The position numbers and the translations under genes are program-made. Positions 213-17,735 of a DNA stretch of 64,000 nt are shown piece after piece. Below the pieces are notes generated by a model. That model saw nothing but the letters and a program-made list of their open reading frames with translations, searched no databases and was not told the origin of the DNA. The stretch is from Pachyseris speciosa (Eukaryota; Cnidaria; Anthozoa; Scleractinia; Pachyseridae). Every line of letters begins with the position of its first letter. Position 1 is the stretch's first letter. Location of the stretch: the NCBI GenBank assembly GCA_016490735.1, contig JAEMWC010000756.1, positions 308,501 through 372,500 of the forward strand, in the 5' to 3' direction.

Positions 213-1412
213 TTAATTCATAATTACTTCTAATGTAAATGTGATGTGAAATGCTCCATTATTGGGATGTGAATAGTTAATTACAAAATAGCCTCTCGAT
301 AATGATTTGTTGATGTTGACTGTTGTGATGTTTCTACTCATAGAAGAACCTCTGTATTGAAAAAAAGTTGTTGGAATTGGAAAAGGCCCAGCACCTTCAT
401 TCTCTTTCTTAAAGTATAATATTCCGGGTTTTGATCCCTGTATGATGTACATTTTCTTAATATAAAAGTTATTGTTATGAACAACCAAATGTTCAGAGCC
501 ATTTATCAATACATTCTTTATAGTATTCTTATTATGTCCAGTACTGGCTTTAACAGAGCAATTTAAATATTGTATTTGACCAATTATTCCATTCCCATTC
601 AAATTTAGATCACCTCCTAATTTCGGTCTGTAAAGAGCAAATCCACCCAAATCGAAAGCCGTTTCCATAATTACACCTGTAACGCTTGAACGAAAGAGAT
701 TTAAACCACCATTGTGAATTCTATGGCCATTTAGATTTAAATCACCACCAAGTTTAGCCTCTTTTATTGAATATGTGTTCATATTAATATCATTTAACAT
801 TGTCAATTCACCATTTTGTCCATCAAATAAGTTTGATGAATTATTAATCAAAGCATGTCCATTCAAATCTAAATCAGTTTGTAATTGTATTTTTTCATTC
901 ACGATTTTGTAAGCTTCAGTGAAGTCGTAAACACTTGATGGAACGTCTGCTGCTTCACCATCAATACCATATGCAACACAATGAACTTTGAACTTATTTG
1001 GATAAGTTGGGTTAGCATTAATATGTATTGTACAATACAAATATTCAGGTGGTGAACTTACTGAAGGTTTTTCAATCCATAATAAATATCTCGAATGATC
1101 TTCATTTCTATTGTCAAATTTTCTCCCTACAGTTCTATGAATTGTACTTCCACCAGTTGCACTGAATGTTACACTACTAAGATTCATTCCTTCATAATCA
1201 GGAAATAGCCATTCGAGAACAAAAGTGTATTTTCCATCATTTATTGTGTACATATTAAATCCAATTCTAGCTCTAAAAATATGATTAGCTTCTTTATTCA
1301 AGTCTACATCAATGACCTTTTTTGAAATCATATGTGGTGAACGAGGTAAATTGACATATCCATTAACTTTCAAGCCATATTCAGTACTAACTTCATCGAT
1401 ATCATTCATCAA
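213..1412 (-). pseudogene. Distal (C-terminal) half of large fibre protein, split off by frameshift
   Basis: An open frame of 399 codons with no collagen repeat. It has beta-rich modules with recurring GGDLNLNG and LDLNGHAL motifs, as in phage-like fibre shafts. Its N-terminal part (RSPHMI, then a GKYTFVLEW segment) resembles the middle domain of the upstream fibre (RSPYHI, then [10 protein letters not shown]). The frame stays open upstream of the listed ATG, where it encodes HPKNAFKYL, resembling KNPFAFLL in the upstream protein. It overlaps the end of the preceding frame by 11 nt. The likely history is one fibre gene of over 1,000 codons broken by a single-base change near 1449-1463, beside a run of five T (1457-1461). 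Independent translation from the ATG ATG pair at its start is possible but less likely. Confidence 0.7.
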
Positions 1413-3462
1413 ATATTTGAAAGCATTCTTTGGATGAGAAGCAGATGAAATATGACTTTTTAACTAATTGATCTAAATTTACGGCATCGGTTTTATTTGT
1501 TCCTTCTTTTAAGTTAATGATTTTATGCCCTCCAAGTTTTAAGTCTGCTGCCATCGCATTTGTTCCATTCAATAATAAAGTGTTTGCTCTGATGGTTTGT
1601 GAAGCTCGATTTAAAACTCTAAAGCTCACTGCATCAGTTTCATTCACCACGTCCGCTAAATTCGTCACTTTATTTCCACTCATTGATAAATTTCCATACA
1701 TCGCAGTCGAACCGTCTCGTCGGAGAAAATATTCGTCAGTATATCTTTTCGTCGCCGCATCGTCTAAATTTACGGGTGGAGCAAGATCAGTAATGGTATT
1801 GTTGTTCATATTTAGATTTTGTTGTGCGATTGCATCAAGTTTGGTTTGCAACCTCTGGTCCACATATTTTTTATTAACTGCATTTTCAGCTGGTGTACTA
1901 TTATCAACATCTTTCAGATCTTCAATTGCATATCCAGCCATGTTCAGATTGCCCTCTGCCGGGTCGGTTCCATCCCGTTTTAGACAGCTTGCAATTTGAG
2001 AGTCAACATAACTTTTGTTTACAGCATCTTGTGGGTTTGAGGGGTTGTCCTGCAGGTTGAGGATTTTATTTAATTTCATGTCAATATTACCACCAAATGC
2101 AACATTACCGTTTTCAATGTCATAAGCTGGGTCATGGACAAAGTAGTTTAGATTTGAATGATATCCAAAGGCTCCATATACAATAAGATGTGTTTTTGTA
2201 TCAGATGTAGGAGATGCGCTTTTCAAAGTAATTATCATAAGAGCCTGACCACTTGCTGTTTTTTCTATCTTGAATAATTTTTTCATATATCCATCAACAT
2301 CTGGAGTTCTAGGGAATGTTTTTTGAATTGGGGGTCCCTGTTCACGCATATTAATTGTTGGAAGAGCTAAATCAATAGAAGCATTGGTTGGATTTCCAGG
2401 TGAGTAAAACTCAGCAATAAATGTGTATTGCCCAACATCAATTGATGATATATCAAAACGAATTTTGGATGTAAAGTTGCCGCTATTTTTAACATTCCAA
2501 GCCAATGATGATTTATTTATGTGATATGGTGATCTGTCATAGTCCTCAATTTGAAGGTTATCCACTCCTTGTAATGAAGAAGACTTAGATGCGTCTTTCA
2601 ACAAAAATGCGAATGGATTCTTTTGAAGTCCAGAAACAGATAATACCGTAGTATCAACATACTCCTTCGCGTTGAGGAATGATGAAACAACAAGGTCATC
2701 AGTATACTCCTTTGTGGTAACATCTTTATCAGAAGTTGGTGTTGCTACATTAGTCAATTTCTTGTTTTCGATATCATAACTACCATCATATGTTAATTTG
2801 AATACATTTCCTGTATCACCTTTATCACCTTTAGGACCTCTTAGACCTGTATTACCTTTTTCACCTTTAAAACCAAATGGACCTCTATCACCTTTTGGAC
2901 CAATTGGACCAGTATCGCCTTTATCACCTTTATCACCTTTATCACCTTTAGGACCTATTGGACCAGTATCACCTTTTGGACCAATTGGACCACCTGCTGG
3001 ACCAGTATCACCTTTTGGACCAGTTAGACCTATATCACCTTTGTCACCTTTATCACTTTTTGGACCAGCTAGGCCTCTATTACCTCTATCACCTTTAGGA
3101 CCAATTGAACCAGTATCACCTTTGTTACCTTTATCACCTTTTGGACCAATTGGACCAGTTAGACCAATATCACCTTTATCACCTTTTGGACCAATTGGAC
3201 CAATATCACCTCTATCACCTTTATCAGCTTTAAAACCAACTGGACCTCTTTCACCTTCATCACCTTTTGGACCAACTGGACCAACAGGACCTATATCACC
3301 TTTATCACATTTTGGACCAAATGGACCTCTATCACCTTTATCACCTTTTGGACCAGTTAGACCTCTATCACCTTTTGGACCCTTTGGACCAATTGGACCA
3401 ACTGGACCTCTCTCGCCAGTTTTAGATTCATCTTGATTCAATGGAGAATTGAAAACACCCAT
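1402..3462 (-). CDS. Large collagen-like virion fibre protein (N-terminal part)
   Basis: A 686-codon frame. After a short N-terminal anchor ([12 protein letters not shown]), residues about 17-215 are almost perfect Gly-X-Y collagen repeats with typical GPKGDKGD blocks. A folded middle domain follows, and then at least four fibre modules of the type D-L-N-M-x-x-N-x-I-x-D-L ending A-V-N-K-x-Y-V-D, as seen in phage tail fibres. There is no signal peptide or membrane segment. The role in attachment is inferred from architecture. The start is supported by the TATATG context and by the paralogous start at 196. The last dozen codons look out of frame relative to the conserved continuation in the next frame, so this is probably the N-terminal two thirds of a longer protein. 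Confidence 0.8.
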
Positions 3463-3478
3463 ATAATATTATATTAGA
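3460..3478 (-). promoter_or_regulatory. TCTA...TATATG start-proximal motif (large fibre)
   Basis: Minus-strand TCTA at 3475-3478, with ATG at 3460-3462 in TATATG. The TCTAA includes the TAA stop codon of the upstream packaging ATPase, so the stop and the presumed promoter core share bases. Confidence 0.5.
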
Positions 3479-4115
3479 TATTTCCATAAAAGTTTCTCTT
3501 AACTATTTTCATTGGTTTGTCAACATAGCAGAAAGAATATGGTTTTTTGGTTGCTTCAATATACTTTTGTTTATCGATTCCAAGCTCTTGTGATATAATG
3601 TTTCTCTCTCTTGTGGATGGAAAATCATAAAGGCAGAAATGGCTACAATTGAGTCTGACAGATTTTGGGCATCCGTAAAATGACTGAGTCAGATACAACA
3701 CTGAGCAATTTTTGTGGCGACCCTGAATGAAATAGCTTATGATTTGATCTTGTTTTTTATCAGTCACGAAATCATCAAACACAACCAGTCGCTGCAAATC
3801 AGTGTCTTTAATTTGTTCAACAGGTAAAATCTCATCTTGACTGCAAATTAAAACGGGGTAACCAACTTCTTTGCTTATTTCATTCATCACTTGCTGCAGA
3901 TGTCGATATTTATCTTGATCCAAGTTTTTGGCGTACAGATGTATCTGATCATAATAGACCAACGGTTCCATAATCAAGTGCATGAATAATGTCGTCTTTC
4001 CAGATCCAGAATTACCCGCCAATAACATTCTGAATGTATCTTTTGGCATATATGGATACAACTGCCTGAAAGACTTATTTGAATTCTGAAAAATGTCATA
4101 ATTTGGAATTTCCAT
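3474..4115 (-). CDS. FtsK/HerA-family (A32-like) DNA packaging ATPase
   Basis: 213 codons, the usual size for Polinton, adintovirus and virophage packaging ATPases. Walker A GNSGSGKT is at residues 34-41 and Walker B LVVFDDF at 110-116. A downstream LTQSF fits the sensor position, and SFYGCPKSVRLNC is a familiar stretch of this family. By family knowledge it translocates genomic DNA into the capsid. The frame is complete with no lesion. It lies on the minus strand, divergent from the coiled-coil gene at 4156, with only 40 bp between start codons, so that gap must hold both promoters. Two minus-strand TCTA motifs (4128-4131, 4133-4136) lie there. Confidence 0.93.
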   Translation of the reverse strand: MEIPNYDIFQNSNKSFRQLYPYMPKDTFRMLLAGNSGSGKTTLFMHLIMEPLVYYDQIHLYAKNLDQDKYRHLQQVMNEISKEVGYPVLICSQDEILPVEQIKDTDLQRLVVFDDFVTDKKQDQIISYFIQGRHKNCSVLYLTQSFYGCPKSVRLNCSHFCLYDFPSTRERNIISQELGIDKQKYIEATKKPYSFCYVDKPMKIVKRNFYGNI

Positions 4116-4136
4116 ATGTAAATAGTTTAGATTAGA
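4113..4136 (-). promoter_or_regulatory. Doubled TCTA motif in divergent promoter gap
   Basis: Two minus-strand TCTA cores in AT-rich sequence, 12 and 17 nt before the ATPase ATG (4113-4115). They lie in the 40-bp gap shared with the divergent gene at 4156, which itself lacks a TCTA. Confidence 0.45.
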
Positions 4137-4155
4137 TTTTATCCAATGTACTTGT

Positions 4156-5034
4156 ATGGAAATAGAGCGTATGAAAAGGCTTCTTAAAAGTGGAATTGAA
4201 GCTGGAAATAGGACTAGAGAAGTTCGTGAGGTTATTAAGACTTATGAAAATAGAAAACAAGATGCATATGATGAAACATTACAATTACTAAAACCATCTA
4301 TTGATGTTCAGAAGAGTGTAAAAGAAAGTGTCGACAAAAAACAGGATGAAGTTATTGAACAGTTGAAAAAGAATCAAAAAGCCTTGACATCCGGTTTTGA
4401 AGATCTCATGCTTTTGAACACATTGCCTGAATCAGTACCTATGGAAACAACAAAATTACCAATTGACTACAAACCAACAATGATGTCTGAAATGAAACCC
4501 ACATATCAGTCAAATATTGAAAAAGGTTTTTCACTTGAGGAGATTGAAGCATTGACAAAATATAATTTACCACCTCCATCACAAATTTTAAATATGCAAG
4601 TAGATGGAACAATCGATCTCAATGACTATGATGCAAAAATCGGCAAGTTAACCCAAGAAATGGGACGTCAAAAAGCAGTAATGTCAAAAACCAAAAAGGA
4701 GAGGGACAGAAACAAAGAAAGGATATTTAAATTGACTCAAGAGATCAAATTACTGCAAAAGTACCGAAAAAGAATTGATGTCATTGAAGAAGGCTCAAAA
4801 ACTATCGGTAAAGGTATGAGAAAGAGAAAAAGACAATATGGAGCTGGTGTTGTTCATTATAATAATATCAATGACTTGCTTTCACGACTTCAGTTACTTG
4901 GTGGGTCTATTTTTGCGGGCAACAACAGTATGGGTGTGAGAAATGAGTTTGCAAACATATTGCATACATTGAACAGATTGGGTGTCATTGGAATCAAGGA
5001 GCTAAATAGCATAATGATGAAATATCTAATGTAA
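4156..5034 (+). CDS. Polinton coiled-coil protein of unknown function
   Basis: 292 codons. Charged helical segments predominate. Residues about 45-75 and 155-205 are rich in K/E/Q/R with a heptad-like pattern, indicating coiled coil. A basic patch follows (GMRKRKRQYGAG, about 220-232), then a more hydrophobic C-terminal tail (SRLQLLGGSIFAG). Its place between the packaging ATPase and the penton-like gene suggests a structural or assembly role, which is inference only. The frame is intact and ends 6 nt before the next start codon. I do not recognise a named domain. Confidence 0.75.
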   Translation: MEIERMKRLLKSGIEAGNRTREVREVIKTYENRKQDAYDETLQLLKPSIDVQKSVKESVDKKQDEVIEQLKKNQKALTSGFEDLMLLNTLPESVPMETTKLPIDYKPTMMSEMKPTYQSNIEKGFSLEEIEALTKYNLPPPSQILNMQVDGTIDLNDYDAKIGKLTQEMGRQKAVMSKTKKERDRNKERIFKLTQEIKLLQKYRKRIDVIEEGSKTIGKGMRKRKRQYGAGVVHYNNINDLLSRLQLLGGSIFAGNNSMGVRNEFANILHTLNRLGVIGIKELNSIMMKYLM

Positions 5035-5043
5035 TAGTATATG
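5025..5043 (+). promoter_or_regulatory. TCTA...TATATG start-proximal motif (penton-like gene)
   Basis: TCTA at 5025-5028, 13 nt before the ATG at 5041 (context TATATG). It overlaps the last codons of the coiled-coil gene. Confidence 0.5.
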
Positions 5044-5825
5044 ACTGAAATTTCACTACGATTCAACAGCAAAAACAGAGACAAAATAGGTGTCAGTAAG
5101 AGTCATGATTTCACAAAAAGATTTAATGTCCCTCTTAAATTAGCGGATGATTTAAATTATGAAATGGCAGTAAAGACTATCAATATGACATACAGTTGGT
5201 ACAACATCAGAGAATCTTATGGGAATAATCAAATTAAATATAGCCATGACAAAGGTGCAAACTGGCAAACAATAACTTTTGTTGATGGGATGTACTCATA
5301 TGATGAAATTAATAACTACATTCATGAGTACTTGAAAAAAAATGGACATATACTGAATCCAGATGAAGAAGACGAAACAAGATATAAGTACGGTATCGAT
5401 TTGTTTTTCATTTTGTCAACATATCGTGTCTTAATGGAACTTAATGAAAATTATCGAGTGGATCTGAGAAATAATGATTTCAGAAAACTTATGGTTTCGA
5501 TTCAAAAATAATTTCAGCCACAGAGTATGGAACAATCTTGCCTGATATAACACGGGGATTAGATGAAATCTATATTAATTGTGATGCTGTGGTAGATAGC
5601 ATTGTTGATGGGAATTCCACAAATACTATCGCTGTTATTCCAGTCACAGATCTCATCAGAAGTTTTCCTTTCACTTATAAACCTCGTTTTCTTTCATGGA
5701 ATCCAGTCTCAACACATACAATCAGCACAATACGATTCTACATCACAGATTCTTTAGGAATTCCAGTTGATTTGAATGGAATAGATTGGTATATTGAGGT
5801 ATTCTTGAGAGGAACACAATTATAA
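5041..5825 (+). pseudogene. Penton-like minor capsid protein, frameshifted
   Basis: Two open frames, 5041-5511 and one entering near 5495 and ending 5825, together match the single penton-type minor capsid gene expected between ATPase and major capsid in Polintons. The first begins MTEISLRFNSKNRDK with a typical TYSWYNI segment. The second holds PDITRGLDEIYINCD and ends FYITDSLGIPVDLNGIDWY, characteristic of the single jelly-roll minor capsid family. The frames are offset by one base, with the break near 5490-5496 by conservation. No canonical slippery heptamer lies there, so I read it as a one-base loss or assembly error and not programmed frameshifting. Role by family knowledge: pentameric vertex protein. 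Confidence 0.8.
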
Positions 5826-5838
5826 AACGTACTAGTAT

Positions 5839-6060
5839 ATGAAACGATTTGAATATGAAAAATATGGTGAAGGTGTCATGACTGACATCATAAAAACCGC
5901 GGGAAAGAAAGCAGCTGAGAAAGCAGCCACATCAGTTGGTGAATATGCAGGAAAAAAAGCTGGTGACAAAATCATTGAACTTTTAAGCAGGAGAAAGAGT
6001 GGAACTAAGAGTGGGGGTATGATTAAAAGAGGCCGTGGCAGACCTCGTAAAATAAAATGA
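5839..6060 (+). CDS. Small basic protein, AT-hook-like C-terminus
   Basis: 73 codons. An acidic/aromatic start (MKRFEYEKYGEG) is followed by an Ala/Lys-rich helix (GKKAAEKAATSVGEYAGKK) and a C-terminus GRGRPRKIK that contains an AT-hook-like GRPRK core. The size, charge and position just before the major capsid gene suggest a DNA-condensing virion protein, analogous to adenovirus core proteins. That is inference. The start context is AGTATATG without a clear TCTA. The frame is intact. Confidence 0.7.
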   Translation: MKRFEYEKYGEGVMTDIIKTAGKKAAEKAATSVGEYAGKKAGDKIIELLSRRKSGTKSGGMIKRGRGRPRKIK

Positions 6061-6069
6061 ACAACTTTA

Positions 6070-6088
6070 TCTAACCCATTAATATATG
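6070..6088 (+). promoter_or_regulatory. TCTA...TATATG start-proximal motif (major capsid gene)
   Basis: TCTAACCCATTAATATATG: TCTA at 6070-6073, ATG at 6086. Near-identical TCTAACCCATTTGTATATG stands before both small Cys-rich protein genes (8797, 9168), making this the clearest version of the motif. Confidence 0.6.
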
Positions 6089-7372
6089 TCAAACTATCGC
6101 GACTCAAATTATATTGAGAGATATGAAGATGTTGTATTTGAGCTTGAGACAGCACTTAATACAGTAGTTGCAAACAATGCTCACCAGAAGAAAACTGGTC
6201 ACCGCTTCGTTGTTGATAACAGTGGAGAGACTACACCATTTGATTGGTACAATGGTCGTTTTAATATTGATTTCATTGAAAAGAAGCTTGCAGATGGAGG
6301 TGATATTGCTGCTGATGACAGAAATGGTATCGTCAATTCAATTCACGCTTTCATTAAAAGCATAAATGTGAAAGTAAATGGTGTTGATGTTTATGAATGT
6401 CGTGACGTTAACCAGGCTGTAAATATTAAATCACTACTTGAGTATTCACAGGGTTATGCTTCAAGTCAAGCAACAAATGAGTTCTACTATCTTGACACCA
6501 ACAGGCATGCTGAAGACAGAGTGGCTCAGGCTAATTATAACAAGGGTTTCGCAGCTCGTAAATCAATGTTGAATGGTGCTAATGGTAAAGTAAATGGTGA
6601 ATTGGCATTGAATAGATATGCATTTTTCAAGAGACTTTATGATGAACTTATGCCTAACTCTAAAGTGGAGCTTAATTTGGAACTTGAAAGTGATGATAAT
6701 CTTGTTTGGCAGGCTGCAGATAATTGTCGTGTAGTACTAACCAAATTTCAGTTGATTGTTCCTCGTATTATTTTCAATTCAATTGGAAAGTCCTTGTATA
6801 TGAGCAAGTATCTTGACACCAGAAAGTGGACTTATCTGAGAGAAATGATTGAGAGGGGTAATTCTACAAGACAGCAGACAGCTAATTTCCGTATCACAAC
6901 AGGAATAAATAAACCAAGGCATGTATTTGTTTTCATCATCAATGATGCCAATGATGAGTCTCAGACAGCAAATAAATTCTTGTACAACACGTTCTCTGTT
7001 GCAAATAACCGAACACTGACAAATTGTTATCTCGAGGTTGGCAATGGAAATGATTATCCAGAGGTTCATTATGATCCATCAACAGAGCCCACAAGAGTGT
7101 TCAGAGATGTTCTGAAATATGTTCATGCAAATAATGACTTCAGTGAAAGCACCTTGCTCAACAGAAGCAACTTTGGTTCAATATTCCCTTTTATTTATTT
7201 CGATCTGACAAAACAGAAACAGGACATAAAAGACGGAATGACTAAACTGACTTTCAAATACACATTGAGTGCTGAAACAAATGCAGATTACAGTGTGTAT
7301 GCACTAGTCCTCTATGAGAAGGACATTGAGATGAGAAAGACTGATGGTAAAATCGTCTTGAGATCTATGTAA
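6086..7372 (+). CDS. Major capsid protein (double jelly-roll, Polinton type)
   Basis: 428 codons, intact from ATG to TAA. It starts MSNYRDSNYIERYEDVVFEL and ends with a strand-rich LTFKYTLSAETNADYSVYAL, both familiar from Polinton/adintovirus hexon-like proteins. The family forms trimers with pseudo-hexagonal symmetry that tile the icosahedral shell. I see no catalytic motif and none is expected. The length is shorter than adenovirus hexon and typical of Polinton proteins. It lies after the basic protein and before an AT-rich spacer, and is preceded by the best TCTA motif in the element. Its intact state contrasts with the broken penton-like and polymerase genes. Confidence 0.92.
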   Translation: MSNYRDSNYIERYEDVVFELETALNTVVANNAHQKKTGHRFVVDNSGETTPFDWYNGRFNIDFIEKKLADGGDIAADDRNGIVNSIHAFIKSINVKVNGVDVYECRDVNQAVNIKSLLEYSQGYASSQATNEFYYLDTNRHAEDRVAQANYNKGFAARKSMLNGANGKVNGELALNRYAFFKRLYDELMPNSKVELNLELESDDNLVWQAADNCRVVLTKFQLIVPRIIFNSIGKSLYMSKYLDTRKWTYLREMIERGNSTRQQTANFRITTGINKPRHVFVFIINDANDESQTANKFLYNTFSVANNRTLTNCYLEVGNGNDYPEVHYDPSTEPTRVFRDVLKYVHANNDFSESTLLNRSNFGSIFPFIYFDLTKQKQDIKDGMTKLTFKYTLSAETNADYSVYALVLYEKDIEMRKTDGKIVLRSM

Positions 7373-7446
7373 TCTAATATTATATGGATATTAATAGTCT
7401 TGAATTGAAACTTTCACTAGATGAAAAAAGGAGCTTGAAGAAATGA
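7373..7446 (+). CDS. 20-codon ORF after a TCTA motif, possible gene remnant
   Basis: TCTA at 7373-7376 is followed by TATATG with the ATG at 7384-7386. The frame encodes MDINSLELKLSLDEKRSLKK and stops at 7444. The regulatory context is as good as that of real genes, but the protein is only 20 residues and an AT-rich low-complexity block follows at once. It is probably the decapitated start of a gene interrupted or eroded by that block. The LKLSLDEKRSLKK stretch loosely resembles VKLSEGQKEKLAKA at the start of the downstream frame at 7610, which would fit a former start of that gene. That link is tentative. Confidence 0.35.
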
Positions 7447-7575
7447 TAGAAAAAAGAACTAAATCAATAATTAATCAATTAATTAAATTAATTAAAAAAA
7501 TTATAATAAATTAATAAATAAATTAAATAAATTAATAAATTAAATTAAATTAAATTAAATACAATTTAGTATAAA
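7447..7575 (+). repeat. AT-only low-complexity tract
   Basis: About 110 bp of almost pure A/T built from short TTAAT and AAATT words with several self-complementary stretches. It separates the major capsid gene from the pVI-like gene. Function unknown; microsatellite-like expansion is the simplest explanation. Confidence 0.7.
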
Positions 7576-7609
7576 CATATATTATCTGACTACTTATCAT
7601 CCTTATGGA

Positions 7610-7945
7610 GTGAAACTTTCAGAGGGTCAGAAAGAAAAACTAGCAAAAGCCATGAACTCAAATTCGGCTGTGACATTGAGGCTATCACATGGTGGATTGT
7701 CTGGAAATGATCAGCTGATGTTGACAAAAACACAAATCAATAAACTGATGAAATCAAAAAGATCAGGAAAAGGATCAGACATCAAGATATCAAAAAGTCA
7801 AATCAGAAAAGCTGTTGTAGAAGGAGGTTCTCTTTGGAGCAGTCTTTTACCATTAGCAACTAAAGTTGCCGCAAAGGCGGCTCCAGCATTGGCTACAGGT
7901 GCTCTTTCTTCATTAGCAGGTATTGGTGTTGAAAAACTATTTTAA
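7610..7945 (+). pseudogene. pVI/pX-like minor virion protein, N-terminal part; damaged start
   Basis: The frame encodes KLSEGQKEKLAKAMNSNS, a middle with regularly spaced Lys (LTKTQINKLMKSKRSGKG), and a hydrophobic Ala-rich tail (ATKVAAKAAPALATGALSS). This pattern is seen in Polinton proteins compared with the adenovirus pVI/pX membrane-active or core proteins. There is no ATG in frame. The nearest ATG (7605-7607) is one base out of register and meets a stop after one codon, so the start seems to have been lost by a small indel. The frame ends at TAA 7943-7945, but the same phase remains open afterwards into the next entry and continues with related sequence. Confidence 0.6.
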
Positions 7946-8785
7946 AAGAAACAAAGTGGGGGATTAGTTATTCCTTATAGAAACTTACCCCAACTATTGA
8001 ATTTCCAAAATCTGTTGAATCCAAGACAAACGGCTGATCTTATCAGTTCAATGCAGTCTGGTGGAGACCTTTATATCAAACCAACGAAAACACAGATTGG
8101 AAAAGGTCTTGGAGCAATACTCGCCAGTATTGCAGTTCCTATGGTCTTGAATGCCATAACTGGGAAGGGTTTGCAGGTTGACAGACGTCGAACCAAACAG
8201 TCAAGAGCAGTTCATGTTCCAGATGACAGAAGTGGAAAAGGTATTGGAACAGTACTCGCCAGTATTGCAGCTCCTATGGTCTTGGCCATTGGTTTTGGAA
8301 TGAAAAAAAAAAGGTCTTATGATGTAAGATTCATAAATACACCATTATCAAACTTTGATTTATTAAAATGGGTGAAACAACTTGGAATAAAATATTTCAG
8401 AGGAGTTTTCAGTCGGGATGCCCTTCCAATACAAATAAAAAACAAAGAATGTGGGATAGTGAATCTTGACAGTCAGATTGGACCTGGTACTCATTGGGTG
8501 TGTTATCGTAATATGGATACATACTGTGAATACTTCGACTCATTCGGTTTAATGATGCCAACAGAAGTTCAAATATATATGGCTACAAGTGGGAAAGAAC
8601 TTGAATACTCTGGTGATGAGATACAAGAAAGGGATTCAGTCTTGTGTGGATATTGGTGTTTGTACTATCTTCTTGAGAGACAAAAAGGCAGATCAATTCT
8701 GGATACAATACACAATTCCAAATTCAATCCAACAGATCCTAGTGTCAATCACAGATTCATCATAGACTACTTTGAAAATATCTAA
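7946..8785 (+). CDS. pVI-like repeats joined in frame to adenain-type cysteine protease
   Basis: Two similar hydrophobic units (GKGLGAILASIAVPMVL and GKGIGTVLASIAAPMVL) precede a complete adenovirus-type protease. Numbering from 7997, the catalytic set is His166 (THWVCY), Asp181 (YFDSFG), Gln210 and Cys217 (LCGYWC). The Gln-Cys spacing of seven matches adenain. By family knowledge it matures capsid proteins. There is no ATG in the first part. The first good ATG is at 8300 (MKKKRSYDV), just before the protease domain, and is the likeliest start. Upstream the frame is continuous with the pVI-like frame across one TAA. So either a separate protease starts at 8300, or a pVI-protease fusion carries an in-frame stop. 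The stop TAA overlaps the TCTAA of the next promoter motif. Confidence 0.8.
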   Translation, partial: KKQSGGLVIPYRNLPQLLNFQNLLNPRQTADLISSMQSGGDLYIKPTKTQIGKGLGAILASIAVPMVLNAITGKGLQVDRRRTKQSRAVHVPDDRSGKGIGTVLASIAAPMVLAIGFGMKKKRSYDVRFINTPLSNFDLLKWVKQLGIKYFRGVFSRDALPIQIKNKECGIVNLDSQIGPGTHWVCYRNMDTYCEYFDSFGLMMPTEVQIYMATSGKELEYSGDEIQERDSVLCGYWCLYYLLERQKGRSILDTIHNSKFNPTDPSVNHRFIIDYFENI

Positions 8786-8799
8786 CCCATTTGTATATG
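8781..8799 (+). promoter_or_regulatory. TCTA...TATATG start-proximal motif (Cys-rich protein 1)
   Basis: TCTAACCCATTTGTATATG: TCTA at 8781-8784 overlaps the protease stop codon and the ATG is at 8797. A second copy with the same bases is at 9152-9170. Confidence 0.6.
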
Positions 8800-9138
8800 A
8801 AATCATATTGTGTAAAACAGAAGAAAGTCACAGAATGTGTACCTGGAAGTGAAAGATATCAAAAGACTAAAAACGGTCGAACTATGATGAAATGCACTTG
8901 TGCTGAGTGTGGCATAACAAAGACAAAATTCGTCAGAGGAAACCAAGCAGGAGGAGCTTCAAGATCAACCATCAGAAGAATTCAAAATAAAGGTCCTTCA
9001 GCTGTTGATAAAGCTGCATATATAATGTCTAATTTTGTGACTCCAGCTCCTAGTTTTGCTGGTTTGGCAAAGATACTTGCAGGTCAGGCAGTCAAGGGTG
9101 TAACAGACAACATTCAGCATTACAGAAGTGGAAAATAA
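8797..9138 (+). CDS. Small Cys-rich protein with DUF5679-like N-terminus
   Basis: 114 codons from the ATG at 8797. The N-terminal about 48 residues resemble DUF5679-like treble-clef or rubredoxin-like proteins found in large DNA viruses (YCVK...TKNGR...C-A-E-C-G). Usually these carry two CxxC pairs. Here the first pair reads CVKQ, so one ligand is missing and zinc binding is doubtful. The C-terminal half is basic and Ala-rich (ASRSTIRRIQNKG, AKILAGQAVKG), possibly a DNA-binding or virion-associated tail. Function unknown. The first 170 bp are tandemly duplicated just downstream. Confidence 0.65.
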   Translation: MKSYCVKQKKVTECVPGSERYQKTKNGRTMMKCTCAECGITKTKFVRGNQAGGASRSTIRRIQNKGPSAVDKAAYIMSNFVTPAPSFAGLAKILAGQAVKGVTDNIQHYRSGK

Positions 9139-9151
9139 AAACCCAAACTTA

Positions 9152-9170
9152 TCTAACCCATTTGTATATG
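9152..9170 (+). promoter_or_regulatory. TCTA...TATATG motif, duplicated copy
   Basis: Duplicate of the motif at 8781-8799, carried along in the tandem duplication of the Cys-rich gene's start. Confidence 0.55.
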
Positions 9171-9323
9171 AAATCATATTGTGTAAAACAGAAGAAAGTC
9201 ACAGAATGTGTACCTGGGAGTGAAAGATATCAAAAGACAAAAAATGGTCGAACTATGATGAAATGCACTTGCGCAGAGTGTGGGATAACAAAGACTAAAT
9301 TTGTCAGGAAACAGGGAAACTGA
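9168..9323 (+). pseudogene. Truncated tandem duplicate of the Cys-rich protein gene
   Basis: 51 codons nearly identical to the first half of the gene at 8797, with only synonymous-type differences visible, followed by RKQGN and a TGA. The break falls right after KTKFVR, where the upstream gene continues into its basic tail. Promoter motif and start are intact, so a short product could be made. This is a recent partial tandem duplication. Confidence 0.7.
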
Positions 9324-9367
9324 ATAGCCCGTCTGAAGGGGCGGGCATACTAGATTCAGCCGCAGAT

Positions 9368-10105
9368 ATGGCACTAACAGGATTCTTGGAACACGGTGTC
9401 CCTTATTTAGCGAAGAAAGGTGTTGAAATGGGGAGATATTATGCTTCAGAAGCAATGAGAAATCCAAAGCTGCAAAAGCAATTGATTGATAAAGGACTTT
9501 CCCTTGCAAAGCCAGTGATTACAAAGGTTGGTAAAGAAGGCTTAATGCAATTGAGCACTGCTATTAGACCCAAACGCTCTGACAAGAAAAAAATGTATAA
9601 AACGGATATTGCTGGAGTTGATTATACACGTGGTGGCTCATTGCTTGGAGACATCATGTATGCAAAACCAGAAGATATACAAAAATGGGTAGCTCAAATC
9701 AATAAAATGGGAGGCGCGATTGATATTCATAAGGTTATTGGCAAGCTTCCTAAACCAAAAGCAGGTTGGACTCCTAGTAAATATAAATACATGGGACCTT
9801 ACAATCCACTCCATGAACAATTGGAATATGATCCAAACACTGGTGAGGTTTTGAAGTGGCATGTCCAACCTTACAACAAAGTGGATGAAATAGCAGCTTA
9901 CCACGATATTTGTTATGATATGGGAAAAGATAAAGGTGATTGTGACAGAACAATGGTAAAATCTCTCGATCAAATACCATATGGTGAAATGCCAAAATGG
10001 GGTCAAACAGCTAGATTCCTAATCAACAAAAAGGAGAAACTAGATTTAGGTGTTCCAAAAAACGGAAAAAGCCGTCGAGTGAAGAAAACTGGCAAGATAA
10101 ATTAG
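9368..10105 (+). CDS. Phospholipase A2-like virion protein (parvovirus VP1u-like)
   Basis: 245 codons. The N-terminal half is a basic amphipathic region (GVPYLAKKGVEMGRYYASEA). The C-terminal half has a PLA2 calcium loop, GPYNPL at 143-148, and the active-site helix HDICYD at 179-184 with the catalytic His179-Asp180 pair. This layout matches the PLA2 domain of parvovirus VP1 unique regions and Polinton/adintovirus homologues, which by family knowledge breaches endosomal membranes during entry. The last 14 codons (10064-10105) overlap the integrase frame. A canonical -1 slippery heptamer lies in phase at 10057-10063, so some ribosomes are predicted to bypass the stop and make a PLA2-integrase fusion. 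No TCTA motif precedes the ATG. Confidence 0.85.
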   Translation: MALTGFLEHGVPYLAKKGVEMGRYYASEAMRNPKLQKQLIDKGLSLAKPVITKVGKEGLMQLSTAIRPKRSDKKKMYKTDIAGVDYTRGGSLLGDIMYAKPEDIQKWVAQINKMGGAIDIHKVIGKLPKPKAGWTPSKYKYMGPYNPLHEQLEYDPNTGEVLKWHVQPYNKVDEIAAYHDICYDMGKDKGDCDRTMVKSLDQIPYGEMPKWGQTARFLINKKEKLDLGVPKNGKSRRVKKTGKIN

Positions 10106-10150
10106 CTGATGAATTACATACACCCATAAAACGCAATTTTACTCGACGGC
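10057..10150 (+). promoter_or_regulatory. Predicted -1 programmed ribosomal frameshift signal
   Basis: Slippery heptamer A AAA AAC occupies 10057-10063 and is in phase with the PLA2 frame (codons CCA AAA AAC). After a 7-nt spacer, GCCGTCGAGT (10071-10080) pairs perfectly with ACTCGACGGC (10141-10150). Allowing G-U, the stem extends to 10071-10084/10137-10150 (14 bp). The -1 frame entered is exactly the integrase frame. All three elements of a classical -1 signal are present with standard spacing. A downstream pseudoknot was not examined. Confidence 0.8.
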
Positions 10151-11022
10151 GTGTGATTGTAAATAAAATTGATGAAATATGGGCTGCTGATCTTGTTGAA
10201 ATGCAAAAATTCAGCAAATGGAATAAAGGTTATAAATATCTTTTGATGGTTATCGATGTTTTCAGTAAATATGGTTGGATTGTTCCTCTGAAGGATAAAA
10301 AGGGTGAAACTGTAACTGAAGCATTTAAATCAATATTTAAGGAAGGCAGAAAACCACAATATTTATGGGTTGATAAAGGTAAAGAGTTTTACAACAAACA
10401 TGTGAAAGACCTATTAGAAAAAAATGGAATACATATGTACTCAACTGAGAATGAAGAGAAGTCATCAGTAGTTGAAAGATGGAATAGGACAATTAAATCC
10501 AAAATGTGGAAACAGTTCACAGTTCAAGGTAATACACAGTATTTAGACATGTTACCAAAATTAGTGAAACAGTATAATAATACAAAACATTCAAGCACAA
10601 AGATGGCACCCACAGAGGCATCAAAGAAAAAGAATGAAGGAACTGTTTACTTTAATCTTTATGGTGATATGGAGCCATTATCAGCTAAACCAAATTTTAA
10701 GGTTGGTGACAAGGTCCGAATATCTAAGTATAAACGGAATGTGTTCGACAGGGGCTATACACCAAATTGGACTGAGGAAGTATTTATAATAGATAAGATT
10801 CAATACACTAATCCAATCACATACAAAATAAAGGATCTTAGAGGTGAAGATATTGAAGGGAGTTTTTATGAACCTGAATTATTAAAAGCCAGACAAGAGG
10901 TATTCAGAATTGATAAAGTCATTCGCAGAGATTACAAGAAGAAACAAGCTTTAGTGAAGTGGAAGGGTTATAGTGACGAATTTAACAGTTGGGTACCATT
11001 TAGGGATTTAAAAGATATATGA
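10063..11022 (+). CDS. Retrovirus-type DDE integrase with C-terminal chromodomain
   Basis: rve-family integrase of the Polinton type. Catalytic residues: D1 in IWAADL (codon 10189-10191), D2 in LWVDKG (10372-10374) and E in SSVVERWNR (10474-10476), with 33 residues between D2 and E. An SH3-like segment follows, then a chromodomain (VIRRDYKKKQALVKWKGY, about 10,900-11,020) that may guide insertion to chromatin. The frame is open from 10015, and residues before D1 (KLADELHTPIKRNFTRRRV) look conserved, yet the first ATG (10201) lies after D1. Normal initiation would therefore give a dead enzyme. Expression by -1 frameshifting from the PLA2 gene explains this; non-AUG initiation (a GTG is at 10153) is the alternative. 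Confidence 0.88.
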   Translation, partial: RKKPSSEENWQDKLADELHTPIKRNFTRRRVIVNKIDEIWAADLVEMQKFSKWNKGYKYLLMVIDVFSKYGWIVPLKDKKGETVTEAFKSIFKEGRKPQYLWVDKGKEFYNKHVKDLLEKNGIHMYSTENEEKSSVVERWNRTIKSKMWKQFTVQGNTQYLDMLPKLVKQYNNTKHSSTKMAPTEASKKKNEGTVYFNLYGDMEPLSAKPNFKVGDKVRISKYKRNVFDRGYTPNWTEEVFIIDKIQYTNPITYKIKDLRGEDIEGSFYEPELLKARQEVFRIDKVIRRDYKKKQALVKWKGYSDEFNSWVPFRDLKDI

Positions 11023-11166
11023 AATTGTTTAAAGAGAAAATTATCTAACGTATATATAACAGAAGATACAGTTGTACATACTGTTATTTGCTTATGGTAG
11101 CCAAAGATATTGTTTCTGGTTATCTCATTGCGGTCAATTAAATGGAATAATTTATATTAATATAGT
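11023..11166 (+). promoter_or_regulatory. Intergenic spacer with TCTA and ATATAGT motifs
   Basis: This spacer holds TCTAACGTATATATAA (TCTA at 11044-11047), which is not followed by an ATG, and AATATAGT directly before the ATG at 11167. AATATAGTA also stands directly before the ATG at 12001. This is a different start context from that of the capsid genes. Confidence 0.35.
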
Positions 11167-11977
11167 ATGACAGAAACTTTCATTTATGAAGAAACCAAAC
11201 TAAATATTATAAAAAAGGATGATGACGTACGGTTCAAAGCCAAGACTGTTGCTGAAATATTAAAGTATAAAAACACTCGCAAAGCTATTCTTGATCATGT
11301 TGATTCTGAAGATAAAGTCACATTAAACAACCTAAAATCTTGGGGTAACGAACCGTTACCCCTAAAAAATAACCATGTGATTTACATAAATGAATCTGGA
11401 CTGTATAGCCTCATTTTGAGATCTGATATGGACAAAGCAAAGGAATTCAAACGATGGGTCACAAAAGAGGTTTTACCATCAATCAGAAAAACTGGACGGT
11501 ATGAATATAACCACAAACATTTCAAAATGTTAACTTTCAATATACAGACAGAGTACGACTTACATAAAAAAAGTGGTCAACTATATAAGAAACCATCATC
11601 CAAAAGCACTATTAAATGCATCACTAGGTGAAAACCAAATAAACAGTGACATGAGATTAAGATCTTATAACATGGGTTATCAAAAAGGTTCACCTGATCT
11701 GATCATTCAAAATCTTCATAAAGTGTATTCAGGATTTTCTATTGAATTTAAAAACCCAAAAGGCAATGGGCAATTATCAGATGATCAAAAAGTAATATTG
11801 CAAGAGTATAGAAACAACAATTTTAAAGTGTTGGTCAGTAATGATTATGATGAAATCCTGAAAGAAATAATTCATTATTTTGATGGTGTAAGGATCAAAT
11901 GTAATAACTGTTCCAGAAAATTTAAGTCATCAGAAACATTAAACAACCATTTAAAACATATTCACAAACTATTATAA
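11167..11977 (+). pseudogene. Bro-N + VRR-NUC nuclease + C2H2 zinc-finger protein, frameshifted
   Basis: Residues 1 to about 115 form a Bro-N domain (baculovirus repeated ORF family; FKAKTVAEILKY, INESGLYSLILRS, WVTKEVLPSIRK). In a second frame (from 11573) comes a VRR-NUC nuclease with motif GSPDL and catalytic-type EFK (SIEFKNPKGNGQLS), then one C2H2 finger (CNNC...HLKHIH). The two parts join at a run of seven A (11564-11574 region), where a one-base length change shifts the frame by +1. That is not the -1 direction of the integrase signal, and the run lacks a proper heptamer phase, so mutation or assembly error is likelier. Role by inference: DNA processing or repair during element replication. 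Confidence 0.75.
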
Positions 11978-12000
11978 AAATATATAGTCATAATATAGTA

Positions 12001-12213
12001 ATGGAAAAAGAATATAGTTATACTGAAATTCTAGGCAGCCAAAAAAGAGGAAGAAAAAAGATTTACAATGCTGAAGAATTAAGAAAGAGAAAAACAAATC
12101 GGATGTTGAATAAAGAATGGTATTGTGACATTTGTAAGACAGGACGAAACTACACACTTGCTGGAAAATGGTGTCACATCAAGACGAACAAACATCAGAG
12201 AAACATGAGTTAA
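12001..12213 (+). CDS. Small basic zinc-finger protein
   Basis: 70 codons. A lysine/arginine-rich N-terminal region (QKRGRKKIYNAEELRKRK) precedes one zinc-finger-like unit CDIC...WCHIKTNKH, of C2H2 type with long spacing. It is probably a DNA-binding protein. The frame is intact, starts in the context AATATAGTAATG, and lies 23 bp after the nuclease gene. No named family recognised. Confidence 0.6.
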   Translation: MEKEYSYTEILGSQKRGRKKIYNAEELRKRKTNRMLNKEWYCDICKTGRNYTLAGKWCHIKTNKHQRNMS

Positions 12214-12324
12214 CAAAAATGAAATGGTTCAAAGGATCCTGTGTTTGGATTACATGAATTGATCATACTTAAACGCGGATGAAAGTCATTTAAACAAAAA
12301 CGACTATAGATTTAATACAAGAAA

Positions 12325-15300
12325 ATGGAAAAATTTATCTCAACCAATAGTAGTATGGATAAGAAAAGTCTAAAGAAACTTAGCAAATCTCAATTAATCA
12401 AATTGCTGTTGAAGCAACAGAAGAAGCCAAAAATAATTGTGGTAGATGATACCAAGCCTGTACAGAGACCAGTGCCAGCGCCTCGCAGGAGTGTAAAACA
12501 AATGGTTCAAGATTATGAAAATAGTATAATTCCTCCACCATTAGAGTTTAGAGACAAACCAACGCCTGCACCAAGAACTAAAAAACAAAAACCGGTTCCA
12601 GCACCAAGAACCAAGATAGAGCCATTAAACAAAGCTCTGAAAGGTTATACTGAGTCTTTTGAAATTGATATAAAAAATGACAAAGACCCGCTAGAGCAAC
12701 TACAAAACACAAGAAAGGCTGTTGCATATCATATTATAAAATTGTTGAATGAAATGAAAGGACTGAAATTTGTTGAAACACTCAAGGTAACATTTACAAA
12801 AATGACAGACGGAGAAATAGTGTATAAGACCGCATATTTCAACAGTCCAGCTCAAACAATTGTGAATAATCTGGGAGTCACTGAATCACTACAAATATCA
12901 AAACAACAAATCTTGAACAAAATAGCTAAATGGGTATCTGAAGGTTCTGGTTGGACAATCGAATCTGTTGATGGTCATTATCTTAATGTGGTAAAATATG
13001 AACCAATCAAAGGTTCTTCATACATTAAACTACCAGCAGAATTACGAAATAGTGCTAAAGGTTTAATTAACTTGAAAAATGAGGATAATGAATGGTTCCG
13101 ATGGTGTCACATCAGACATTTGAATCCACAGGATAAAAACCCACAGAGGATCAAAAAGTTGACAAAGAATTAATCAAAAATTTGGATTATACAGGGTTTG
13201 AATTCCCAGTCACTACCAAACATTACAACAAGATTGAAAAACAAAATGAGATCAACATTAATGTTTTCGGTTATGAAGACAAACAACCATATCCAATATA
13301 CGTTTCAAAAGAAAAGTATGAAGACTGTTTGAATCTTCTTCTTATAACTGAAAATGAAAACAAGCACTATGTACTCATCAAAGATTTCAACAATTTAATG
13401 TACAATCAGACTAAACATAAGGAAAGAAAGCATTTCTGCATGCATTGTCTTCAGTGTTTCAGCTCTGAAAGGATATTAACAGATGAAAAAGGAATTCAAC
13501 AAACCACTGAGAATGACAAAAGATAATGAGGAGGAATTCCAAAAAGCCAAAGAATGCCACATTTGCAATAAAAAATATACTGATAAAGATATTCGAGTTC
13601 GAGATCATTGCCATATCACTGGTAAATACAGAGGCTCTGCCCATCAAGAATGTAACCTTAAACTTAGAGTAAATGCAGAAGAAATAAAAATTCCAGTTAT
13701 ATTCCATAATTTGAGAGGTTATGACAGCCACTTCATTATGCAAGAGATTGGAGCTGTTGTCAAGAAACACACTTACAAAAATAAGAAAGGTGAAGACTGT
13801 CAAATGACAATCAATGCCATTCCCAACAACATGGAAAAGTATATGGCTTTCATTCTTGGTAATCAACTCACATTTATCGATAGTTTCCAATTTATGAGCT
13901 CTGGTTTGGATAGACTAGTCAGTAATCTTCCAAGAGAAGCTTTGAAATATACCTCTCAAGAATTCAAAGGTGAAGAGCTTGATTTAATGTCTCAAAAAGG
14001 TATATACCCTTATGACTACATGGACAGTTTCAACATTCTATGAAGAACTACCAACAAAAGAAGAATTTTACAGTGTATTAAGAGACGAACACATAAGTGA
14101 TGAGGACTACACACATGCCCAGAAGGTGTGGAATACATTCTCTCTCAAAAATATGGGTGAATATCATGATCTTTACCTTAAATCAGACATTCTTCTATTA
14201 GCAGATGTATTTGAAAACTTCACGAAAACATGTCTTGAATACTACAAACTGGACCCATGTCATTATTTCACGTCTCCAGGGCTTTCGTGGGATGCAATGC
14301 TTATGATGACTGATATCAAACTGGAACTGATGACTGACATTGATATGTTCCAATTCATTGAAAAGGGTATGAGAGGTGGAATAAGCTATATTGCTAACCG
14401 TTACGGAAGAGCAAACAATAAATACATGAAAGAATACGATGAGAAGGCGCCCTCGAAGTACATCATGTATCTTGATGCTAATAATTTGTATGGTTGGGCT
14501 ATGAGTCAATATTTACCAACCGGTGGTTTCAAATGGATGACAGAAAAGCAGATCAGCAAGTTAGACCTAGCAAAGTACCAAGAAGATAGCAACAAAGGTT
14601 TGATACTTGAAGTTGATTTAGAATACCCCCAAGAGTTACATGATCTACATAATGACTACCCACTTGGACCGGAAAAGATTAAAGTGATCGAGGACATGCT
14701 ATCAGATTATTGCAAAAACATCGCGAAGAAATACAAGATATCAACTGGTTTGGTACATAAACTGATACCAACATTAAGCAACAAAGAAAAATACGTGCTT
14801 CATTACAGAAACCTTCAACTCTATACAAATCTCGGTTTGAAAATAACTAAAGTCCATCGAGTGTTAGAGTTCAATCAATCCCCTTGGCTCAGGCAATATA
14901 TTGATTACAACACTCAGAAAAGAACTAATGCCAAAAACACATTTGAAAAAGACTTTTTCAAGCTGATGAATAACAGTGTATTTGGAAAAACGATGGAAAA
15001 CCTTAGAAAGCGAGTAGACGTCAGATTAGTCACCGATGAAAAGAAACTATTAAAAATGGCTGCTAAACCGGCATATGTTAGCAGTAAAATATTCAATGAA
15101 AATCTAGTAGCTGTGCATAAGATTAAAGAAACACTTACCCTGAACAGGCCGGCATATGTGGGGATGTGTATTCTAGACCTTAGCAAGACATTGATGTATG
15201 AATTCCACTACCACTACATCAAAGAGAAATATGGAGATGAAGCAAAATTACTATTCACAGACACTGACTCATTAACATACGAAATTGAAACCGAAGACGT

Positions 15301-15737
15301 CTATAGAAATTTCTGGAACGATAAAGATAAATTCGATAACAGCGACTACCCAGAATACTCTCCATATTTCGATAAGACGAATAAAAAAGTAATTGGTAAA
15401 TTCAAAGATGAGGCTGCAGGAGTTCCAATTTGTGAATTCATCGGTCTACGATCGAAAATGTATAGCTATATGAAAGACAACCAAAAAGGAGGAAAGACAG
15501 CCAAAGGAATTTAAAAAAATATTATAAAAAAATAACATCACTCATGAAAATTATAAAAATGTACTATTCAATAACGAACAAATGCATCATACAATGAAAA
15601 CAATCCGAAGCAATAACCATCAACTTGGAAGCTATGAGCTTAATAAAGTGTCATTATCTTGCTTCGATGACAAGCGGTATATTCACGATAATGGTGTGAC
15701 AAGCTATGCATATGGACACTACGCTATTAACAACTAA
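12325..15737 (+). pseudogene. Protein-primed family B DNA polymerase (pPolB), multiply broken
   Basis: The N-terminal region has a Lys-rich start and three PVPAPR/PTPAPR proline motifs. It runs through the conserved YIKLPAELRN segment to a CxxC-type finger (FCMHCLQCF). The frame then jumps near 13,475-13,485 to NKPLRMT...CHICNKKY...RDHCHITG. Relatives carry the 3'-5' exonuclease motif I (D-F-E type) between these blocks, so the exonuclease core is deleted. Later lesions: a frameshift near 14,030-14,043, an in-frame TGA/TAA change near 15,510-15,515, and short frames to TAA at 15735-15737. Polymerase motif A (YLDANNLYG, about 14,468), motif B (LMNNSVFGKTMEN) and motif C (DTDS, about 15,260) persist. 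The element cannot replicate itself with this gene. Confidence 0.9.
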
Positions 15738-16110
15738 AATAACATTTCCTTCATTTCTCAATATATCGGTATTCATTAATTTGAAGAAGATATTTTATGA
15801 CTTCAACTGAAAAGTCTGATAAATCAATTGAAGATTCAACTCAAGACTCAAAGGCATCTTCGGTGTTGTTAATTTAAGGACAACCAACTTTTTATCAAAA
15901 TGCTTGTACTTCTGATAAAAATATCAGAAAATTACAAACGAGATACAATTCTGATTGGTTAGAAAAATCATACGACCGTCTCGTGATGACTCATTTATAT
16001 GACATCATCGACTTCTTGTTTTTCCGAGAATGTCACGCTTGGTGATTCTTCCGAGAAAGTCACGCATTTTTAATAAACTATAGTTTTCATTGAGTGGTAC
16101 CAACAGATGG
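15738..16110 (+). pseudogene. Possible decayed ORF (15797-16045) beyond the polymerase
   Basis: An ATG at 15797 opens 26 Ser/Asp/Lys-rich codons to TAA 15875-15877. The same phase then stays open for 55 more codons (GQPTFYQNACTSDKNIRKL, then WLEKSYDRL) to TGA at 16043-16045. The read-on suggests one gene with a nonsense change, loosely reminiscent of N-termini of hAT-type transposase or zinc-finger proteins, but I cannot assign it. Just inside and after its end are two 17-bp near-identical direct repeats (16022-16038, 16049-16065; TTCCGAGAA[T/A]GTCACGC). Confidence 0.25.
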
Positions 16111-16190
16111 AAGAGTAGTATAGGAGTTGGGTTGGTTTGAGAACACTTTTGAGAAAATGTTCTCGTACCCCCAACTCCTATACTACTCTT
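16111..16190. repeat. 80-bp palindrome, candidate Polinton end or small foldback element
   Basis: Perfect 21-bp arms, AAGAGTAGTATAGGAGTTGG(G) at 16111-16131 and its complement at 16170-16190. Inside is a second palindrome, GAGAACA...TGTTCTC (16139-16145/16158-16164), with TTTT/AAAA extending it. It lies about 370 bp past the last Polinton coding sequence. It may mark the right end of the element, where terminal inverted repeats are expected, or be an unrelated foldback insertion. No flanking target duplication is evident. Confidence 0.55.
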
Positions 16191-17250
16191 GTCATTCAAC
16201 AACAACAACAACAACAATGTACTCCTCTAAGCTCTATTCAATTTATTTCCTCTATTCTCATGTAGATTTCTCTTGCTACAATTTACGCTGGGGTTTCAAA
16301 TAATTCACTGGTTTTTCTGAGTTAAATGTATTACTATCAACAAGATAATTGGCACTTTTATGCTCTCCTCACGAAATTTTGTTAAGTGTAAAAATTGACA
16401 AACATTCAATTTAAGCTTAAATTTAATCTGGAGAGACTGACGTCCACTGTGAAGTTCCTAAAGCCCTTCCATCGAACTCTTTCTATTGCCGGTCATTCTG
16501 CTATTTATGTTTTTTTTTTCATATCAAGACACATGTATTTTATCACTCCCTAATAAGAAAAACTTTATTATTGGTGGTGTGAATTACCCAACAGTGTTTT
16601 AGTTGTTGTTCCATAGGCGAACCTACATGCAAATGATAATTTATTAACTTTGCGGCCGTAAAAGAATGGTACAAAACAAATTTAAAAGAACTTACATTAA
16701 GTTTTCAAAATGTTTGTCCATAGAATAGGAGTACTCTCGCATCCTAACACTGAAACCAACGTGTCTATGATCTTGTACTTATCAGCTGAGCTTCGATGTG
16801 TCTTGCTTCTCATTGAATTGTTCTTGAATACAAACCAGCCAGCTTCCAAGTCTTTATACCGTTGTTTTTGTTGGCTTTCACAAACACGAAAGATAATGTT
16901 CGAAATAGAGGAATAACAGAGGGAACTCGTCAGAACGCTTCGTCTTTATCATTCTTCATGAAGATCATTCCGCGAATCTTTTAAGTGATTCCAGTATCTA
17001 CATCAAAAGGAAAGCTAATAACGTTTCCCTCTCCGCTAATTTACATGAAATTAGAAAGGCTCGGTTGTTTTGTGTTATAAAACTAAAAAGAACTTGAGAT
17101 TACTCATTGTCCGTAATGGCGGCTCAGTCGCGAGAGAATTTCGCGAGAGCCTCGCGAACACGCCTCTTAGTGACTTCCGGTTATTGAATCAGCCAATCAG
17201 ATTTCGTCCAAATTCTGGACGAAGCCACAGACTCCCGTGAGACTTTGTAT
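16191..17250. other. No gene recognised
   Basis: AT-rich intergenic sequence with a short (CAA)n run just after the palindrome. The small open frames here lack any recognisable protein feature. Confidence 0.5.
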
Positions 17251-17735
17251 CAGGCCCAATTGTAGCGAGCGCCGACATAAGAGGACATAAGAGCGATGCT
17301 TCAATTGGGCCTGATCGCAGGTTAATCACAGTTATGAATACTACTTAAGCAGTTTTTCCAGGCTTTATTTTCACTACTGCTTAAGTAGTTAAATATGTGA
17401 CTGATCATCGCAGTTATGAACACTACTTAAGCAGTGGTGAAAATAAAGCCTGAAATATATGATTTTCATATATTCATTCTCATATATTCACCACTCACGT
17501 GTATATTACGAACCAACAAAACGACTAGCTCTCAGATGGCTAGTTAGCTCAGTCGGTAGAGCGCTGCTCCGGTATCGCAGAGGTCGTGGGTTCGAATTCC
17601 GTACAAGCCTGAATTTTTTCAGGCTTTATTTTCACTACTGCTTAAGTAGTGTTCATAACTGCGATGATCAGTCACATATTTAATTATAAATGCGCAGTTC
17701 AAATATATGATTTTCATATATTCATTCTCATATGC
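17251..17735. repeat. SINE/MITE cluster with tRNA-like sequence and inverted repeats
   Basis: A hairpin CAGGCCCAATT...AATTGGGCCTG spans 17251-17313. A block at about 17407-17457 is repeated in inverse orientation at about 17617-17670 (GCAGTTATGAACACTACTTAAGCAG type, holding ACTACTTAAG palindromes). Between them, 17538-17609 is tRNA-like on plus: an A-box-like TTAGCTCAGTCGGTAGAGC, loop CCGGTAT, and a B-box-like GGGTTCGAATTCC. Stems are imperfect, so this is a tRNA-derived SINE head and not a working tRNA gene. A related fragment lies at 33660-33790. Confidence 0.7.

Follow-up and report, generated by a model that had tools for sequence, protein, structure and literature searches.

The stretch of DNA analysed here, in the following called the window, comprises 64,000 nucleotides from Pachyseris speciosa (contig JAEMWC010000756.1). 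By its gene content the first 16 kb of the window is read as a Polinton/Maverick element of cnidarian type. Within this element an open reading frame (ORF) for a phospholipase A2 (PLA2) overlaps the ORF of an rve-chromo integrase, the integrase frame being the -1 frame of the PLA2 gene. At the overlap lies a candidate signal for -1 programmed ribosomal frameshifting, consisting of a slippery heptamer, a short spacer and a stem (Table 1). A preliminary description of the locus had predicted from the sequence alone that PLA2 and integrase are fused at this signal. We followed up this prediction using the window itself and the proteins of its relatives.

Table 1. Features of the PLA2-integrase junction; positions refer to the window.
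Feature	Position	Strand	Remarks
PLA2 ORF (0 frame)	9299..10105	+	stop to stop; ATG at 9368, stop TAG at 10103-10105; Phospholip_A2_4 3.8e-08 (Pfam)
TAG in the integrase frame	10012..10014	+	ends the short frame opened by the ATG at 9997
Integrase frame (-1 relative to PLA2)	10015..11022	+	Pfam rve 1.7e-11, Chromo 2.8e-07; proposed post-shift reading from 10063
Slippery heptamer A_AAA_AAC	10057..10063	+	in phase with the PLA2 frame
Spacer GGAAAAA	10064..10070	+	7 nt
Stem, 5' arm	10071..10084	+	14 pairs, 2 of them G-U
Stem, 3' arm	10137..10150	+	encodes part of integrase FTRRR with CGA and CGG, which are among the rarer Arg codons
First catalytic Asp codon GAT (presumed)	10189..10191	+	other triad codons: Asp 10372-10374, Glu 10474-10476
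First post-stop ATG of the integrase frame	10201..10203	+	downstream of the first catalytic Asp

Besides its domain match, the PLA2 ORF contains the motifs YMGPYN (9788-9805) and HDICY (9902-9916), which we take to be the Ca loop and the catalytic motif of PLA2, respectively. Comparison of the PLA2 alignment with the PDB gave no significant match. In the integrase, the second Asp and the Glu codon of Table 1 align to the D and E of solved retroviral integrases, while the upstream GAT codon lies outside this alignment and is presumably the first D of the D-D-E triad. The integrase also matches the NCBIfam models of IS481, IS3 and IS30 transposases, all below their cut-offs. As to initiation, the ATG ahead of the stop at 10012 opens the integrase frame but encodes only MGSNS*. 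The preliminary description had stated that no integrase ATG precedes the first catalytic Asp. This holds for the window copy, but not for some of its relatives, among which 13 of 120 integrase models start with MG (see below).

The heptamer in the phase of the PLA2 gene, the spacer, the 10-bp stem extendable to 14 bp with G-U pairs and the coincidence of the -1 frame with the integrase frame had all been described before, and each of them is found in the sequence. The heptamer follows the X_XXY_YYZ pattern in the correct phase, and the stem begins within the distance of ~5-9 nt that was looked for. On the + strand of positions 1-16500 the string AAAAAAC occurs 4 times in any frame. The accessible text of PMC5009743 counts both A_AAA_AAC and U_UUA_AAC among the -1 sites at which mammalian ribosomes shift most readily. 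When the sequence 10064-10210 was shuffled with preserved dinucleotide content, an equally good stem, i.e. one starting 3-10 nt past the heptamer and lying within 100 nt, was obtained in 1 of 20,000 shuffles. The 3' arm was furthermore examined by synonymous resampling, in which the integrase protein and the 5' arm were held fixed and the codons of RNFTRRRV were redrawn. The stem was regained in 55 of 200,000 draws with the element's own codon usage and in 1,594 of 200,000 draws with uniform synonymous choice. The codons CGA and CGG used in this arm make up 11.5% and 2.3% of the Arg codons of the element.

Conservation was assessed at the level of the proteins of relatives. For PLA2, the best 120 of 620 relatives found with the domain of the window were combined with the best 120 of 286 found with a very different PLA2 type, giving 239 distinct proteins. 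For 42 of them the end was not machine-readable (truncated, other or missed), though two of these, P0167 and P0230, do carry K-N. The remaining 197 tails were readable and could be anchored at a KLGLG-like motif. Among them x-K-N, as encoded by the heptamer in the 0 frame, was found in 157 and L-N directly after the anchor in 18. In all 157 cases K-N is preceded by a residue with an NNA codon (S 48, P 44, Q 29, T 19, K 11, A 5, L 1). The residue following K-N has a codon starting with G in 127 of the 157 (V 46, G 45, A 34, E 2), the remainder being a stop in 19 and other residues in 11 tails. At the same time the 0-frame stop changes its position, following K-N after 0 (24 tails), 4 (73), 13 (45) or other numbers of residues, and in the first PLA2 set the linker between the anchor and K-N is 1 to 17 residues long. 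Judged from these tails, the slippery site is the constant part, while linker length and stop position float. At least three kinds of PLA2 domain appear to have retained K-N, or less surely L-N, at their end, and they precede the same kind of junction as if the lipase had been swapped and the junction kept. Retention of K-N for the sake of the protein, as part of a basic tail, does not account for the 19 tails in which the stop follows K-N directly.

The KLGLG-like motif itself (KLDLG in the window, 10037-10053) stands directly before the slippery site and is kept across at least three PLA2 types. It may be a cleavage or linker signal. Adenain-type cleavage was considered and rejected, the motif misfitting the consensus as we know it.

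If the PLA2 tail and the integrase N-terminus are two readings of the same DNA, one nucleotide string must be able to encode both. We therefore back-translated 188 K-N or L-N tails jointly with 55 integrase stretches, calling a tail supported when at least 9 consistent codons covered the site. A consistent DNA with the integrase in the -1 frame existed for 84 of the 188 tails. In the controls the +1 frame gave 0, and three shuffles of the integrase peptides gave 0, 3 and 0. A smaller first run requiring at least 10 codons supported 36 of 99 tails, compared with 0 of 99 for the +1 frame and 4 of 99 for reversed peptides. The heptamers forced in the 84 supported tails were AAAAAAC (64), AAAAAA[CT] (14), C_UUA_AAY (3), U_UUA_AAC (1) and GAAAAA[C/T] (2). 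Thus 78 of 84 force AAAAAAC or AAAAAA[CT], and at the level of proteins the conservation of heptamer and phase called for in the preliminary description is borne out. For the L-N class a switch to U_UUA_AAC is suggested. The partners in these back-translations mostly come from separate proteins, such that the -1 relation is a property of the family rather than of single records.

The integrase side gave a compatible picture. From the 6,971 relatives returned by a search we analysed the best 120, one of them named (Oculina patagonica). Of these models 25 lacked an anchor and 41 started too late, leaving 54 that were usable, i.e. had at least 18 residues ahead of the ADELH motif. K-K-R/L was present in 42 and F/L-K-L/R in 4 of the 54, as expected if such sites are read in the -1 frame. 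In 37 models both K-K-R/L and the F-T-R-R-like motif, which encodes the 3' arm, could be located. The two stand 24 or 25 residues apart in 28 of these models and 24 residues apart in the window.

The signal is present in the correct phase, the window copy has no AUG from which an active integrase could start, and conservation is deduced from proteins. On these grounds we consider it probable that a functional -1 programmed ribosomal frameshift joins PLA2 to the integrase, in support of the original prediction. Several results weigh against this. The minimum-free-energy fold of 10064-10200 lacks the stem and is no better than random (z = -0.03, 91 of 200 shuffles as good), while the fold of 10064-10210, which is 10 bases longer, contains it at -24.0 kcal/mol. 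A pseudoknot between loop and downstream sequence was rejected, since the partner was reached in 627 of 2000 mononucleotide shuffles. Neither K-N nor L-N is found in 22 of the 197 anchored PLA2 tails. In the back-translation 104 of the 188 tails had no 9-codon partner, support was weak in the L-N class (4 of 28 tails, compared with 80 of 160 for K-N), and the GAAAAA[C/T] forced by two K-N tails is a non-classical site. Of the 54 usable integrase models 1 is in the 0 frame and 7 belong to none of the classes, and some of the 42 with K-K-R/L carry it in the 0-frame linker of fused models instead of the -1 frame. Moreover, the penton-like region (5038-5825) and the polymerase region (13137-15514) are each spread over overlapping ORFs in different frames. 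The window copy therefore appears partly decayed, is perhaps inactive and may be dead. Finally, the 13 integrase models that start with MG continue through the junction.

These models speak for separate initiation, in which the integrase would have its own start (a leaky-scanned internal ATG, a non-AUG codon or its own transcript) and the overlap would merely reflect gene packing. For the relative P0010 the ATG can be placed at a Trp codon of a P0251-like PLA2 gene, with 26 codons consistent in both frames. Placement is less firm for five others (8 codons), and only 4 to 6 codons agree for the other seven. In the window, 8 near-cognate codons lie between the stop and the Asp codon of the integrase frame, while the frame opened by the ATG at 9997 ends after five codons. 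K-K-R/L is nevertheless still present in 10 of the 13 ATG-bearing models. Since separate initiation also leaves the kept A_AAA_AAC with its floating linker and stop as well as the recoded stem unexplained, we regard it as unlikely, though as the strongest of the alternatives.

A small intron joining the PLA2 frame to the integrase frame would make the fused gene models in public data correct. Of the best 120 integrase relatives 32 are predicted as one protein that carries a PLA2 as well as an rve domain, and nine GT..AG pairs of the right phase and at least 20 nt are available at the junction, 4 of them of at least 50 nt. The predicted junctions differ, however, even between near-identical models such as P0013 and P0014, which looks like the work of gene finders bridging a frame break. 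Splicing requires neither heptamer nor stem, and it is very unlikely to account for the junction. Still less credit can be given to decay, in which mutation would have separated the frames of a single ancestral ORF in the window copy. Other regions of this copy are split between frames as well, and some fused models (P0003, P0036) read the A run as one continuous frame. A random origin would, however, yield both frames without a fixed heptamer, whereas the -1 relation was deduced for 84 of 188 tails and the +1 relation for none; decay was rejected as the cause of the frame break on this result. Slippage of RNA polymerase on the A run, which would fuse the frames in transcripts of altered run length and for which P0003 and P0036 pass straight through the run, is just as improbable, six A being presumably short for Pol II slippage and neither the stem nor the few L-N relatives following from it.

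With frameshifting as the preferred explanation, most ribosomes would terminate PLA2 at its TAG, while some would slip at A_AAA_AAC into the -1 frame, aided by the stem. The latter would read on through the integrase and produce a single PLA2-linker-integrase-chromodomain protein. In cells the shift would presumably take place in a low, fixed proportion of cases, and either the fusion itself or an integrase released from it by cleavage would travel in the particle and reach a new cell together with the DNA. The PLA2 of parvoviruses is a capsid-borne enzyme, and by analogy the PLA2 here would be a particle protein. It is thus plausible that a fusion made at low level could ride into the particle with PLA2.

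The integrase N-terminus bears on how far this can be taken. In the window only 33 residues are possible in the integrase frame before the LHTP motif. No relative was found when viral contigs were scanned with the integrase, the integrase alignment, a 24-base DNA pattern, the PLA2 alignment and the polymerase ORF. A search of genome contigs gave one distant locus, with an integrase 31% identical, on a contig filed under a Bathymodiolus symbiont. The Polinton-like genes on this contig are probably host DNA in the bin. At this locus no PLA2 ORF stands beside the integrase in the ORF list, no domain search having been made, and an open frame of >100 codons precedes its LHKP. The upstream segment resembles what we take to be the usual N-terminus of Polinton integrases. 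Compared with this, the limited room in the window suggests that the start of the integrase has apparently been handed to the PLA2 frame. We tentatively propose, at somewhat less than even odds, that the PLA2 frameshift product is the main or sole form in which integrase is made by cnidarian Polintons. In this Gag-Pol-like arrangement of a dsDNA virus lineage the entry lipase would carry a few integrase copies in the particle, such that integration could start on arrival, and in exchange the integrase would have lost its own start and the N-terminal domain usual for it.

The assignment of the element rests on its other genes as well. The window start falls within the element. Domain searches found rve, Chromo, PLA2 and a double jelly-roll (DJR)-like capsid protein, and furthermore an A32-like ATPase (Pox_A32), endonuclease VII (Endonuclease_7), Bro-N, VRR-NUC and a collagen-like fibre protein. 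The set looked for in a Polinton/Maverick, i.e. rve-chromo integrase, PolB, A32-like ATPase and DJR capsid protein, is present. The PolB match is sub-threshold, as the DNA_pol_B_2 match (9.6e-05, ORF 13480-14043) lies below the family cut-off, and the ORF 13988-15514 gave no match in the domain search. The region 5038-5825 was without a Pfam penton match, and its penton-like identity is our assumption from reading it. The label cnidarian derives from the named protein relatives, which are from the corals Oculina patagonica and Stylophora pistillata.

Several further features were noted in the window. A direct repeat of 158 bp with 95% identity (8779-8936 and 9150-9307) corresponds to the beginning of an ORF that matches DUF5679 weakly and below cut-off; this beginning recurs just before the PLA2 ORF. 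Downstream of the integrase, within 11161-11977, the ORFs for Bro-N and for VRR-NUC/C2H2 overlap in different frames. The available text of PMC12721341 reports a Bro-N/VRR-NUC fusion as previously undescribed, in a dinoflagellate Polinton-like virus. On the - strand, 1402-3468 has collagen-like repeats and a T7-tail-fibre match and likely encodes the fibre protein. An inverted repeat with arms of 56 nt that are 79% complementary (17334-17477) lies ~2 kb past the last Polinton ORF found.

PLA2 in Polintons was already known (PMC4642659, PMC5803895, accessible parts), and frameshifting is described in the accessible part of PMC8310308 as known in relatively few eukaryotic DNA viruses. A literature search of limited depth, with the subscription literature largely outside its reach, found no description of a Polinton in which a frameshift links PLA2 and integrase. 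If the frameshift works, it would explain, in a way open to testing, how a Polinton entering a cell comes to have its integrase with it. It would also place the Gag-Pol solution outside reverse-transcribing elements and account for the oddly fused or broken gene models of PLA2 and integrase encountered in this analysis.

Retroviruses and long terminal repeat (LTR) elements produce Gag-Pol by -1 frameshifting. The junction described here shares with them a virion-type frame upstream, an integrase downstream, a slippery site of retroviral type and a stem after a short spacer. It differs in that the element is made of double-stranded DNA and has its own DNA polymerase, that the upstream partner is PLA2 and not a capsid protein, and that the -1 frame contains neither protease nor reverse transcriptase, with packaging of the fusion suggested here by analogy. 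OrfAB of the IS3 family is likewise an rve-type enzyme that arises as a -1 transframe fusion, as proposed here for the integrase. The upstream ORF of IS3, however, belongs as we understand it to the transposase, whereas here it encodes an unrelated lipase. Programmed -1 frameshifting is described for the OrfAB of ISSau2 in the available text of PMC5771124. Closer in terms of virus group are the adintoviruses, for which -1 slippery sites were suggested in Penton with KnotInFrame (PMC11071296, accessible part). There, too, the predicted site lies near the 3' end of a virion gene, but it would provide an alternate Penton C-terminus and involves neither PLA2 nor integrase. An insect Maverick with CAP (PLA2) and INT genes likewise combines a parvovirus-like PLA2 with an rve-chromo integrase in one element; in the accessible part of its description these are separate ORFs without a frameshift link (PMC5803895).
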